Source: Gamsiella multidivaricata (taxonomy: Eukaryota > Mortierellomycota > Mortierellomycetes > Mortierellales > Mortierellaceae). From it: 64,000 nucleotides of DNA. Both the position numbers and the translations under genes were made by a program. Position 1 is the stretch's first letter. Each line of letters opens with the position of its first letter. Under the pieces are notes generated by a model. It made no database searches, was not told where the DNA came from, and saw nothing but the letters and a program-made list of their open reading frames with translations. Location: the NCBI RefSeq assembly GCF_025024155.1, contig NW_026251744.1:1-64000 (forward strand). The letters run 5' to 3'. Positions 57,012 through 63,245 of this stretch are shown here, piece by piece.

Positions 57012-57985
57012 GTACGGTAGACACCTTGGATAGATAAATTATTAGAGTATTGGGAGCAGGACTTTCCAGGCATAAACCTCCTGATTGGCAGACTTTTTGG
57101 ACGGAAATAAGTTTTTTAAGGGTGGCAATAAGGACCATCCTATTTTGGAACACAATCTTCTGACCGTCCATCAGACTCAATTCCTTGTGCCTGTTTGAGA
57201 ACGGCTAACTGACATCTTTGTCCCGCCTGGACAGTATTGAGGCCCTTCACCTCAAGCAAGGTCTTCCTTACTCCTGCAATTGTGGTCTGGAAGTACTCGA
57301 GCGTACATTTCCTCTTCTTTGTTGAGCCAGCGGCAATGACGATCTCCGATATCATGTTTTTCAGATCGGCCTCAAGATCCTGAAGCTCCTGCTCTTGTTC
57401 TTTTTCTCTGGCTATTCTTTTCTGTTCCGCCTTTTCTGCCCTTTGCCTATGAAGTAGAAGAAGGATTGCTGGTGGGAGGGTTTACTCCAAAGACGACGGA
57501 AGTGTTGAATCAGCTGAAGGATCAAAATCATTCTGGTCGGCCTGTACTTGTAAGTAGTCAACTTCGTAAGGCTCTCCTTGATAAGAAATCTCTATGCCCT
57601 TATAGGCCTTTGCGGTTAAATACATATATTTGCACGGCGCCTGATGTTGAGCATAATAGTTGCAGCGACAGGCAGCAATGATGGCGAATTCTTCGTCTGT
57701 ACGGACGTCATATGTAAGACTTGTGGGTGAGCGAGGAACAACGAGGTGAAAACGAGGGGAGACGAGTGAACAAGGTGAGTGAACAAAGACGAATGTGTGA
57801 AGACAATTGTTTATTGGCTAGACTGTTGTGAGTATATGAACTGTGGTCCAACTACATAGTCTGTCCTTCCTTATATACATCAGACGAATAAAGATCCAGA
57901 TTAGTAATCCATGATTCCATGGTTCTAGACGTTTCGGTGCTGCCTTCGCTCATCTTTACATCATGGAGCTTTCTGTGATGAGGGC
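57012..57985. other. Intergenic with mobile-DNA debris
   Basis: It includes the SWIM-finger fragment at 57140-57715 (minus strand) and short GTGAGCGAG/GAGTGAACAAGG repeats at about 57724-57790. Confidence 0.5.
57140..57715 (-). pseudogene. SWIM zinc-finger protein fragment (5' truncated)
   Basis: On the minus strand a frame from 57715 reads TYDVRTDEEFAIIAACRC.., with a CRC..APCKYMYLTAKAY arrangement. This matches the SWIM pattern CxC..Cx(H) except that Tyr replaces the usual final His. A 39-nt GT..AG intron (57447-57485) then joins in frame to a coiled-coil exon (EQRAEKAEQKRIAREKEQEQELQDLEADLK..) ending at TAA near 57140. SWIM fingers are common in MULE transposases and in SWIM-only families amplified in early-diverging fungi. 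The 5' part is missing: nothing in frame continues toward the MITE at 57986. It is probably a dead fragment. Confidence 0.5.
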
Positions 57986-58370
57986 CAAGTTATCTATTTG
58001 ACAACCCGGGTTGCCATGCATTATTTGCCAACCCCCCCCCCCTAATTGACTGCTGCTACGAGACTTATTTTGGCCCGCCTTCTGAATCCACATATACTGC
58101 AGCGGCGATTGAGGTAGCGGTCAGTTCGGCTCTACTCAGTACAGCTGGATCCATGCTACGAGGATATGGGTAGGCTAGTGTAATGACTCGTCAGCAGGGG
58201 TAAAGGAGGAGGAGGAGAGCAGTGGGGCAGCGAGGAGAAATGGCGAGAGCAAGCAGATGTGAGTTAGTGCAGCCTGCGGTGGACAAGTGTGCAGTGGGTA
58301 GCATCAGCGGTTAATTAAAGGGGGGTTGGCGAATAATGCATGGCAACCCAGGTTGTCAAATAGATAACTT
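57986..58370. mobile_element. MITE with 58-bp terminal inverted repeats, 385 bp
   Basis: The left end AAGTTATCTATTTGACAACC and its right-hand reverse complement extend about 58 bp each with only a few mismatches, including TGCCATGCATTATT and a C/G-run (CCCCCCCC). The ~270-bp interior has no ORF. No sure target duplication (flanks ..GGGCC and AATGT..). A diverged relative of the repeat lies at 2185-2206. It ends about 250 bp before the XPG-Fanzor reading frame. Confidence 0.88.
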
Positions 58371-58617
58371 AATGTTGATCCAATCTTAGACGCGTCTAGC
58401 GTCACATGACAATACCAACAGAGTTAAACTCTGACATGAACCCACGCGTTACAGCACTGATCACTCGTTTTCCTTCCTTACTTTAAACCTCATAACCTCA
58501 TCGTCTTTGCAGATTCCCGACATCCGACCTCTTTTCCATTGAATCGATCACATTACTTCAGCTAAACACTACACATTCGACAGCAGCTCTCTCATCGCAC
58601 CACTCGACGTACAGGAA

Positions 58618-61600
58618 GTGATGGGTCTTAAAGGCTGGTACGCCTTTCTTCGTAAGAAGGGTTACCAACCCTCTGTACTTTACCCATCAGCCGCGTCAAC
58701 AACCTCGAACACCGCCACCAGAAGAGTCGACCTTCTCTCTCGCTTTTCAGTCATCAGGATGCTTATACACGAAACTCCATCGAGGTGGCCCATACGATCC
58801 TAGAGCTGGATGTCATGCGGTTCGGGACCAAGGAAAACATCATTATCTACGTCGACGGAGTCCAGGCAGAGAGGAAGGAGTTCACTGCTCAGATCCGCCA
58901 AGAAGCCCGGGAGAAGACTACTAAGCGATGCAAAGAAAGTGTGGATGAACTACAAAGACGGATCGATAACAACCTCAAGGTCCGTAAGCGACACTTTGCC
59001 GATGCCTGGACCAGCCTTGCGTCCTCCTTCTATTGGTCCCTGCCCATCCGTGATGCATTTGTCAAGTATATGCAGGACGAGGGGTAGAGCATCCAGCGAT
59101 GCGAGACGGAAGCTGATGTTGTGATCGCTCGAGATTGCAGATCTGACGATATTGTCGTGTCTGCGGACAGCGATATGCTCGCGTACCCATCCGTGTCAAC
59201 CCTGTGGCGCCCGATTTCAAGGAACTTGATTCTGATCTACAAGATACCGGATATCTGTGAGGTTCTCGGTGTGTCCAGGATCCAACTCACGGCCCTCGCT
59301 GTTGCCTCCAACAACGACTACGGAAAAAATATCTACTCTCTTGGACCGGCGACCAACTTTTCGATTATCAAGACGATCAAGAAACAAGGTAAATATCAAT
59401 GATCAAAGTATTAAGGAGCGAGGCTGAACCATTTAACTAATATATATATTTTTCTACCCTATTTTTGCAGATGTGCGACAGACGGTGAATGCATATTTGG
59501 AAGACTCCAAGGTCGTTTTAAAAAACACAGACAACAGAACACTTGAACTTGCACTCAGAGTCTTTGTTGATCTCCAACAGACGCCTGTCAGTGATCCTCG
59601 TCCTTTGTCCAACGTCTCGTCCTACAGTGAGCTTTACAAACGACTCAAGGATCTTTGTGCCATGTACCAGGAGAACAAGGATTTTCGCGCACAACTGCAA
59701 CCAAGGTATGCTATATTTCTGTTCAATATCGCACGGCATTTAGGACTTGGCATCGGCAATCGTCTCACAGCTCACCTTACTTATTGTTTTGATGTCAATA
59801 GTACTCGCAATGATCAGATCATCCGCCTCCGCTCCTCGCATTCTTCCATTCAATATAGGACAGTTGAGTCTCCAGCTATGTTGAAGCCTGGCCTTGGGTC
59901 GCGCTTACCACAGCCGCCATCACCGCAACCATCCTCAGCACAACCACAACAACCTGCACCGAATCTGCAGGATGACCCTCCGACCACATTACCGTCTCAG
60001 GAGTCAAACGGTCACCCGCCGCTTCCAAGGACGCAATTCCCACGAAATCGCCATCGTTGCTCATTCAAGACGAGGACAGGGGCAACAAACCCCCCACCCC
60101 CAGTCAAGATGAAGCTCTACAAGTTCGAGCCTTACAGGGAGTCTGAAGCAAAAGACGAGCTTGAGCCTCCAGCGACGAGCCCAAGACCAAACTCAAAACG
60201 TTGTCCGATTCGAGTGCAGCCACCCGCAAGCTCGCTATTACACGGTTATTACAATGCCAACACCCAACGTCTACTTTGAACGTCGGTACTCTATCCGCTA
60301 ACCTCAGACGAGCTCTGCCAAACGACGGTATCGTTCAACAGGAAGTTGCCCTCTGTATTCGAAACGCTGTGCGCGAGGCTGCCAGGATCAAACGACAAGG
60401 CCAACGAGTAATTGAAAAGTTTGTCGAGCATGTGAACAAGCATGGACCGGGTCCCAACGATCGTCGATTCATGGATTTTCTTTGTCCTGGAGTCTCCGTG
60501 AAGGACGCAAAAAAGCTGGATGACGGTTGTGCTGCAGAGGACGACGGTGAGGATGGTGGTGACATGGACCAGAAACCCAAGGATGGCAAAGGCTCTGAGC
60601 AGTTCTTGTTCCTCCAGAGCTTTCTGTCATACCTCTACTCTGGGAACTACCCACGAAAAAGTGGTACCGGTCAGAAGGTCAACGATTTCATTGATCGCCT
60701 CAAGGATCTCGGACTGTATGCCCACCACGTCCTCGGGCCGCTCTCAACGAGACAACTCCCTTCTCACCAACAGAGTTACTCCTATCGGTGGCGTTGCAGC
60801 TCAAGGTCGAACTCAAAAAAATGTACCGTAATGGGACCTGTGAGCTGCATAATAAGGTATGAGTTGAAGGCACTATTGGTCATCTTAATGTACATCAAAC
60901 CGATACCTATCATGCCTCTCATTTATTATTTTTTATCTTCTCAATTATAGCTCCAGAAAAGAAAAAAGAAGGGGCTGTTGGGATCCGATGCTAACGTGGA
61001 GATCCAAGAGGAGGTATCTGCTATTGAAAACTACCTCGCGATCAACAAATTGAGTCCAAACCCTCGTAGGATCATCCCCATGTCAACGGCGAAGCAACCT
61101 TTTGTCAGTTTCACGGAGCGACAACTAGCCATGTTCTTTTTCAACCGCGGAGGCGCACTGAGGGCACGGGTTCAGGAACTGGTCGGTACCGTCTGCACAT
61201 CCATGCAGGATGTTGAGGAGTGGATAGGAGGAAAAGAACCAGGCTTTCTCATCAAGCACCTCATCGTCGATATCGATCCCGAAGACCTGACCAGTCGCCA
61301 GAGAGGCAAGGCTGGACACCGCGCTGCGATCAAGTTGTTATCCCTTGATGATCTCGAGACCCACTTGCAGATGCTGGACGATCCAGAGTTCAGACCGGAG
61401 ACCTATGCCCGCAAAGGATATTTTCACAGGGGGTCTTTACGAACTGACGGATTCACTATGCAGCTCCTGTGTTCCAAAGTCAGGGAACTTCTGTCAGTCA
61501 AATACAAGCGGCTGCCCGACGATCGCCTACCTCCTCGATTGACTTCCACACTTCACGGTACCAGTGATTTTTTGACGGAGATCCGAAACGTTGTCCGAAC

Positions 61601-62750
61601 CAAAGATGATGTGGCGAGACTTTGGCCTGGTGTCGATCCTAAAGATATCAAGATCCTCACCCTTGATGCAGGACAAGCTTTTGTCGTCGGAGCATACGCA
61701 CATCTTCCACAATCGGGCAAAGACAAGGATCCAGTGCAAGGAGCCCCTCCGTCCTTCAAAGGCTTATTCCCTATTACCTCTTCCTCGACAACAACACCAC
61801 AGGATGTTATGCAGAGATTCACTTTGGAACAACAAGCGACCACAACGCCACCAACAATGATGGGGCTCGCGAAAGCCCACCACCATAATCTTGCTGTTAA
61901 CCAAAGCGGTGATGCAGCCTGTGTTCCGATACAGACGGTGACTTGAGGACGAGAAGCAGCTGATTCCAGCGGGTCAGTCAGACTCCATCGCGGACATCGG
62001 GTCCTGTCTTCCTCCTATTCGAAGTCCAGAGGCGAGCGTCACCAATTACATCGAGATGCTTGAACAAGTCGAGGATCGACTGTTGGAATTTTATAATGGT
62101 AACAATAATCGGTTCAACAAACACACTTGGGATATGAAGCGAGCCAAGCACATCGAGTACCAGGCTATTGCCAGCAGCCTACTCCGGATTGTTGGTGGCA
62201 GCATCGGTGAGCGCTGCAAGGATGACAATCCTGTGTTGATCGGTGTGGGCCTCGGTTAGTTCGGAAGCTCCAGTCGACTGTCATCTCTGCACTCTTCATT
62301 TTTGTCGTATTTCGTCCCATTGGTAAGCAAACTCTTCACCATGTACCATCGGGAATGTCTTCAGAGGAGTGAGTGCCAATGAATAATATATTTTGTTATT
62401 TTATTTAGGCTCGATCTCTCAGATACATTGTGGTGGGTCTCAACGAGTTTTATACGTCAAAGAAATGTCCGGATTGCCACCGGTTTGTGGCCCAAGTCAC
62501 CCTTCGAGAACTCTTCTGCCCCCACTGTGGACGGTATCGCCACAGAGATGTGATGGCGGCCGAAAACATGTCCAACATTGCCCGAGAGTACCTATTACAC
62601 CAGGAACGATCACTCTATCTTCACCCCGTCACGGCAGATGGTAGATACCCATGGATGGAGTCAAGAAGTCCAGGGCAAGAGATGGCCGAAGGGGCGATTG
62701 TTGGAACCAGCGCCACTAATCGCAAAAAAAGAAGAAAGATGGAACTTTAA
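58618..62750 (+). pseudogene. XPG/FEN1-like nuclease fused to a Fanzor (TnpB-like RuvC) nuclease, degraded
   Basis: The N-terminal part is XPG-like: MGLKGWYAFLRKKGY at the very start, YVDGVQAE (Mg-binding Asp), RCETEADVVIARD and SADSDMLAY. A Pro-rich linker (~59880-60200) follows. The C-terminal part is Fanzor-like: RuvC-I LTLDAGQAFVVGAY (Asp at 61664-61666), VLIGVGLG where TnpB has its RuvC-II Glu, LNEFYTSKKCPDC..CPHC zinc ribbon, and RuvC-III HRDVMAAENM (Asp at 62547-62549). Introns at 59391-59470, 59707-59801, 60858-60950 and about 62320-62408 splice conserved parts together, so I read one gene, not two. Lesions: frameshifts near 58757, 60175, 60725 and 61900; TAG at 59085-59087, TGA at 61939-61941, TAG at 62257-62259. 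Several stops sit where a Trp or Lys is expected. Living relatives would be mobile-element nucleases of ~1,100 residues. Confidence 0.85.
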
Positions 62751-63245
62751 CATTTTGTATGTACGACCACACACACCCACGTGATGATTACAGGGGCGTT
62801 GATAAATTTATGGTGACGTAGATAGCGCCTAGGTAGTCCTTTTCAAATAAATCTTACGCGTGCACTGTGGACTGCTCTTGAGACAATCGAACTAGGACGC
62901 GACCAAGCTCTGACCTTTGCGTATGCACTGCAGACAGCTCCACCTTTCATTCCATCCATTCCACTCATCACTTTACCAAGGACCCACTTGATAAAAAAAA
63001 ACCAAAATTCATTCATCAGCTTAAAGCCAATCAGTCAATTATGGTAACACTTAACCCTCGACTTTGCTTTTGCAAATGCTTCGGAGCTACATAAAACGGA
63101 TAGACCTTGGAGCAACACAGCAGGAATAGCTTTTGTACTCAGTCCCAGAAAAAGAAAACTCATCGCTTCCCGGGGAGGGCTTTTTTCTTCATGACCTTGT
63201 TGTAGTCTCTCCGCCTCGCACCTTCAAGCAAACCCTCGACCGCAG
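62751..63245. other. 3' flank of the Fanzor gene, 0.5 kb
   Basis: There is no ORF. If this element worked as other Fanzors do, its guide (omega) RNA would be encoded about here. A possible degenerate inverted match (AGGCGCTATCTACGTCAC on the minus strand, 62813-62830) to AGACGCGTCTAGCGTCAC at 58388-58405 may mark the element ends. A GTGCACTGTGGACTGCTC/ATGCACTGCAGACAGCTC pair (about 62862 and 62924) is a short imperfect direct repeat. Confidence 0.35.

Follow-up and report, generated by a model that had tools for sequence, protein, structure and literature searches.

The Gene and Its State in the Window

The window analysed here is a stretch of 64,000 nt of Gamsiella multidivaricata (NW_026251744.1), and its positions are used to number all features. 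At 58621-62750 on the plus strand it holds a five-exon gene made up of a FEN1/XPG-type nuclease half, a linker, a Fanzor core and a zinc ribbon. An earlier note on this DNA had proposed spliced exons in the same orientation, and four GT-AG introns could indeed be placed, all of them with equivalents in the related locus L023.

58621..59388 (+): exon 1, FEN1/XPG/Rad2-like nuclease domain, broken by a frameshift near 58758 and a TAG at 59085-59087
59389..59470 (+): intron 1, GT-AG, equivalents in L021 and L023
59471..59705 (+): exon 2, coding for helices C-terminal to the nuclease core
59706..59801 (+): intron 2, GT-AG, equivalent in L023
59802..60856 (+): exon 3, Pro/Lys-rich linker leading into the REC helices and first strand of the Fanzor; frame shifted near 60165 and again near 60720, the exon being open in relatives
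60857..60950 (+): intron 3, GT-AG, equivalents in L021 and L023
60951..62322 (+): exon 4, Fanzor REC/WED/RuvC-I, RuvC core and TDG motif; frame shifted near 61902 and a TAG at 62257-62259
62323..62408 (+): intron 4, GT-AG, equivalents in L021 and L023
62409..62750 (+): exon 5, zinc ribbon with CxxC at 62466 (CPDC) and CxxC at 62517 (CPHC), stop TAA at 62748-62750

All motifs on which the earlier note had based its FEN1/XPG signatures and TnpB/Fanzor core were located, each on the plus strand. The nuclease half carries the MGLKGW start at 58621, a D34-like Asp at 58729, the YVDG Asp at 58854, ETEAD at 59103-59117, the two SADSD Asp at 59166 and 59172 and the NDY Asp at 59316, and the Fanzor half carries the RuvC-I Asp at 61665-61667, the alternative Glu at 62445-62447 and the RuvC-III Asp at 62547-62549. 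The proposal that both halves form one reading does not hold for this copy, which has four frame breaks and two in-frame TAGs and is thus decayed and unreadable as one protein. The break positions were set by comparison with L032, which is 91% identical over 4,196 aligned bases and itself not intact. The last exon matches PF07282 (Pfam, E=1.9e-11), while the XPG_I score of the window copy is 17.8 bits, under the curated Pfam cut-off of 24.9. Pfam searches with single exons did not clearly detect the first half, which was detected by profile searches.

Two Nuclease Halves in Relatives and Across the Genome

The five exons of L023 join to 1,256 amino acids with one frameshift and one stop. This query retrieved 17 proteins and a profile of those retrieved 41, giving 50 distinct proteins in total. 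Parts of both halves were found by patterns in 16 of the 50, and P0024, missed by pattern, brings the number with both halves in one record to at least 17; in the other 33, many of them partial records, both halves were not found by patterns. The family is thus large; the earlier note had described similar composite proteins as numerous in Mortierella. The matches bearing an organism name all belong to Mortierellaceae genera, P0049 and P0106 being G. multidivaricata proteins, P0018 a protein of Podila verticillata, P0006 of Linnemannia hyalina and P0022 of Gryganskiella cystojenkinii, and further matches include metagenome proteins. The approximately 8,000 candidates scored in the protein searches do not establish absence elsewhere.

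The active-site residues of both halves are kept in P0004, P0006, P0018, P0019 and P0022, including a D34-equivalent Asp of P0022 that was missed by pattern and is visible in the alignment. The MG start is missing in P0004 and P0019, the latter also lacking a stretch after RuvC-I, and P0001 has lost one zinc-ribbon cysteine. In P0008, P0009 and P0011, Lys stands in place of the alternative Glu, and GGSD is found where the first half usually has its DSD block.

FEN1 uses seven acidic metal-binding residues together with a catalytic Lys and Arg. Across six divergent first halves, which share 21-49% identity with the reference row of the alignment, D36, D81, K88, R95, D168, D185, D187 and D235 are invariant, five of the six have Glu at the seventh acidic position (E158-like), and the spacing of K and R is FEN1-type. 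Sequence and fold matches of the first half are FEN1, EXO1, XPG, Rad2 and GEN1, and the XPG_I scores of P0018 (23.5 bits) and P0022 (22.6 bits) lie under the cut-off of 24.9. Element families E and F (L037-L040) are very divergent, with first halves 22% (L037) and 21% (L039) identical to that of P0018.

For Fanzor1, the pattern ExxxxxxCxxCx(12,18)CxxCx(4,8)D, in which the alternative RuvC Glu precedes CxxC by six residues, has been described (PMC10711439). It is present in the window at 62445-62549, and a similar pattern was found in 12 of the 50 database matches, most others being partial. The TDG motif of the Fanzor1 WED domain (PMC10711439) appears as RGSLRTDGF in exon 4 of the window and as TDG, in a few cases TNG, in relatives. 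DPG at RuvC-I, reported "near exclusively" in Fanzors (PMC10711439), occurs in P0014, P0022 and L037-L040; the motif is DAG in the window and DAG, DGG or DLG in most relatives.

Folds were assessed on two overlapping models of truncated relatives, with structures compared by VIA-align. The modelled first half adopts the FEN1/XPG superfamily fold and the modelled Fanzor half the WED-REC-RuvC-TNB core fold, the result that the earlier note had looked for from structure prediction, while the long linker was modelled as disordered. The linker and the first Fanzor elements share one open exon in L032 (family A), L017 and L034 (family B) and L018 and L021 (family D), and the linker motifs TVESP, RYSFK and PPP.MKQ recur across genera. 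Between families, the ratio of nonsynonymous to synonymous differences (pN/pS) was 0.33-0.43 for the first half, 0.54-0.58 for exon 2, 0.42-0.50 for the linker and 0.22-0.53 for the Fanzor segments, with stop codons skipped and pS values of 0.57-0.83 near saturation, which shows purifying selection on both halves and the linker. Within family D (L021 versus L023) pN/pS was mostly not low, as expected for decaying copies. Distances among the first halves and distances among the Fanzor halves correlated at 0.80 over 12 proteins, a value reached in none of 5,000 permutations; 13 of the 17 proteins had been entered and P0007 was dropped (cut point not found).

The pairing extends across the 37.5-Mb genome, where PF07282 has at least 109 matches among those listed and XPG_I has 12. 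Eight of these 12 sit 3.1-3.6 kb upstream of a same-strand PF07282 match, five of the eight passing the XPG_I cut-off (25.5-26.6 bits), and the four strongest, which are not so paired, probably represent repair genes of the host. A search with the first half of L032 gave 121 matches, merged into 94 loci, of which 53 are followed within 5.5 kb by a same-strand zinc ribbon, at a median gap of 3,034 bp (interquartile range 2,834-3,106 bp). Control arrangements gave three pairs (opposite strand) and four pairs (upstream), so the halves are paired more often than by chance. These counts are lower bounds, with 41 first-half loci and 56 zinc-ribbon loci left unpaired. When 12 loci were picked by the zinc ribbon alone (L025-L036), the first half was in place in six, L030 had a weak distant match only, and no first half was found in five, whose detectable part starts further 3'. 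In L027 (6499-8719) a second relative of the composite gene lies directly downstream of the first in opposite orientation.

The Surrounding Transposon

The gene lies in a family A element with the following further features.

57067..62838 (+): Fanzor-bearing transposon copy, left end uncertain, right end known to a few bases
57212..57478 (-): C-terminal remnant of a divergently transcribed transposase, 94% identical to its L029 counterpart over 89 amino acids
57569..57718 (-): further remnant of this transposase, SWIM-like (CxC..CxH), matching the SWIM-like piece of L027 at 40% over 50 amino acids (tblastn E=1.4e-11)
57987..58370 (no strand): unrelated miniature inverted-repeat transposable element (MITE) inserted in the element's 5' region, approximately 384 bp, 51-nt inverted repeats 96% complementary
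62778..62838 (+): terminal hairpin that contains GGTGACGT and reaches the right end, a candidate scaffold for an omega-RNA

Homology to L029 begins at 57067 and homology to L032 ends near 62838-62846. The MITE is missing from L032, and a 3-bp overlap at its junction may be a target-site duplication. Families B, C and D have a sharply defined right end, and in families A-D GGTGACGT or a close variant starts 27-35 nt before this end. At five chosen right ends of these families a hairpin runs to the last base (z -3.1 to -5.2) with stem sequences that differ between families; the window hairpin folds with z -3.67, or -2.54 on the last 75 nt. A z of -2 or lower was found for the last 75 nt of 7 of 14 right ends, compared with 1 of 14 flanks and 4 of 164 internal windows. 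Among the right ends, L023 and L031 narrowly missed this value, and those of L029 and L037-L040 were unstructured. In L025 and L029 (family C) the upstream hairpin arm is lost or poor. For SpuFz1, the region from the stop codon to the 3' repeat has been examined as the non-coding RNA (PMC10432273), and a putative omega-RNA at the right end would fit this. Rfam gave two weak matches on 58300-63000, both below gathering scores.

The transposase comparison covers families A-D, E and F having too little flank. Families B, C and D carry upstream transposase pieces on the opposite strand, of which the first block is DDE-like and the end SWIM-like, whereas in the window and L032 the transposase is reduced to its end. 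The MULE transposase profile PF10551 matched weakly upstream of L034 (C93:674932-675057(-), E=0.004, below cut-off), and the pieces alone gave no Pfam MULE match; from its sequence, the gene is classed no further than MULE/SWIM-like. L036 (C105:270700-279200) has a 471-aa transposase-like open reading frame that differs from the SWIM-type one, and of the Fanzor gene only the last exon lies behind it, together with the right end. This Fanzor end belongs to the L031 family (93% over 824 bp), and the locus is similar to the "ghost" loci reported for SpuFz1. In score and span, eight further zinc-ribbon matches equal the one in L036, at least two of them paired with a first half.

Interpretation and Comparison With Known Systems

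We are nearly certain that the family gene codes for one protein of approximately 1,200-1,350 amino acids, in which an N-terminal FEN1/XPG-type 5' nuclease is followed by a long linker and a complete Fanzor1. Both folds, the active-site residues in several relatives and a single spliced frame apart from decay are demonstrated by sequence together with models. Two adjoining genes of one transposon, making separate proteins and joined by gene-model error, are highly improbable: no transcript was seen, and entries exist with the first half only (e.g., P0032 with 728 and P0036 with 590 amino acids) or the second half only (P0003, P0014), but the open exon spanning linker and first Fanzor elements in five loci, the linker motifs shared across genera, the purifying selection on the linker and the co-variation of the halves all speak for one protein. 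The fusion of two nucleases in a mobile element, as proposed in the earlier note, is supported at the level of the family.

The explanation as a whole, to which we give an even chance, is that the window holds a decayed copy of a Mortierellaceae transposon whose family gene encodes a nuclease-Fanzor fusion, the Fanzor making a guided cut and the nuclease processing it. The Fanzor half would be guided by RNA from the right-end hairpin and flanking DNA, would open an R-loop and would cut the matching site, either the empty donor or a sister or homologue. The tethered FEN1/XPG-type half might then act on the branched DNA at this site and cleave 5' flaps or the displaced strand, turning the break into ends by which the element would be copied back or outward. 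XPG can cut R-loops in vitro (PMC8888383), and TnpB uses its cut as a gene drive (PMC11870625). Because an RNA-guided nuclease makes an R-loop, a tethered XPG-type nuclease would have a natural substrate, and both reports together lead us to favour a homing role in which ends or R-loops are processed; trimming of the guide RNA and assistance to the transposase are rivals still in contention. The division of labour proposed for the two halves falls a little short of an even chance. That the family represents a two-nuclease RNA-guided eukaryotic effector, in which the Fanzor locates its target and opens it while the branched DNA so formed is cut by the FEN1/XPG domain of the chain, a break being both made and tailored for transposon homing, is possible, although we lean towards doubt.

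PIN-fold nucleases are often RNases and a Fanzor requires a processed guide RNA, and the first half might accordingly trim omega-RNA or silencing RNAs instead of cutting DNA flaps; its matches to the DNA-structure nucleases and its FEN1-type K/R spacing make this unlikely. Slightly more weight is due to a nuclease half that serves the transposase at flaps or gaps during excision or insertion, the fusion merely keeping it with the element, as a divergent MULE/SWIM-like transposase gene lies upstream in families B, C and D, with its end in A, and the P0127 gene model has part of a first half fused to a SWIM-like stretch. In the families read, however, the first half precedes the Fanzor on its strand and not the transposase, and we regard this role as somewhat unlikely. 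Transposons capture host genes, the examined copies are disabled, and P0008, P0009 and P0011 have lost active-site residues, all of which would suit a captured passenger domain without a function of its own; active-site residues invariant over six first halves of such divergence, together with purifying selection, render it improbable.

Several observations weigh against guided cutting and processing by a fused protein. P0008, P0009 and P0011 lack residues of both active sites, possibly having lost both, and P0127 (Mortierella hygrophila), labelled SWIM-type by its source (Pfam SWIM E 0.037), has the SWIM-like stretch and not a Fanzor joined to part of the first half. P0006 and P0018, an exception to the co-variation, are 87% identical in their first halves and 60% in their Fanzor halves, which suggests that halves were exchanged between element lineages and are therefore exchangeable. 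No single structure model covers both halves, no intact copy was found among the exons examined of the window, L020, L021, L023, L032, L034, L037 and L038, and no activity, transcript or small RNA was seen. As to the element, families E and F as well as L025 and L029 lack the hairpin or have a weak one, target-site duplications, judged by eye only and with uncertain left ends, are not established, and no long terminal inverted repeat was found, none exceeding the shuffled level in L019, L027 and the window; a 21-nt imperfect inverted repeat of L029 is at the edge of chance (score 34 versus a shuffle maximum of 33).

Within the open-access literature, to which our search was limited, we found neither a description of a Fanzor-FEN1/XPG pairing nor any Fanzor literature on Mortierella; the phrase "Fanzor flap endonuclease homologs (Fendons)" is used for viral genes, with no fusion described in the accessible part of that paper (PMC11071296). 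Fanzors are under development as genome editors, and what they naturally do in the transposons of eukaryotes is not settled. A structure-specific DNA nuclease kept fused to a Fanzor through deep divergence points to the events after the RNA-guided cut, and the family offers a natural dual-nuclease protein for testing, which, if the proposal is true, would be a programmable enzyme both making and tailoring a break.

In contrast to the 5' nucleases FEN1, XPG (Rad2), EXO1 and GEN1, the first half is transposon-borne and fused to a Fanzor, and its identity to their solved members is only 12-17%. Compared with the Fanzor1 proteins SpuFz1, PpFz1 and GtFz1, a FEN1-type nuclease of approximately 300 amino acids and a linker of approximately 150 stand in front, and RuvC-I reads DAG, DGG or DLG in most members and DPG in some. 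PpFz1 with its FRI domain, a cyclophilin-binding insertion (PMC11423790), is likewise a Fanzor1 with an added part. The left ends differ from copy to copy, as has been reported for the MCi-2 Fanzor family of Mucor (PMC3627910), and the elements resemble the MuDR-type elements of Bao and Jurka 2013 in being fungal Fanzor1 elements, possibly likewise of MuDR type.
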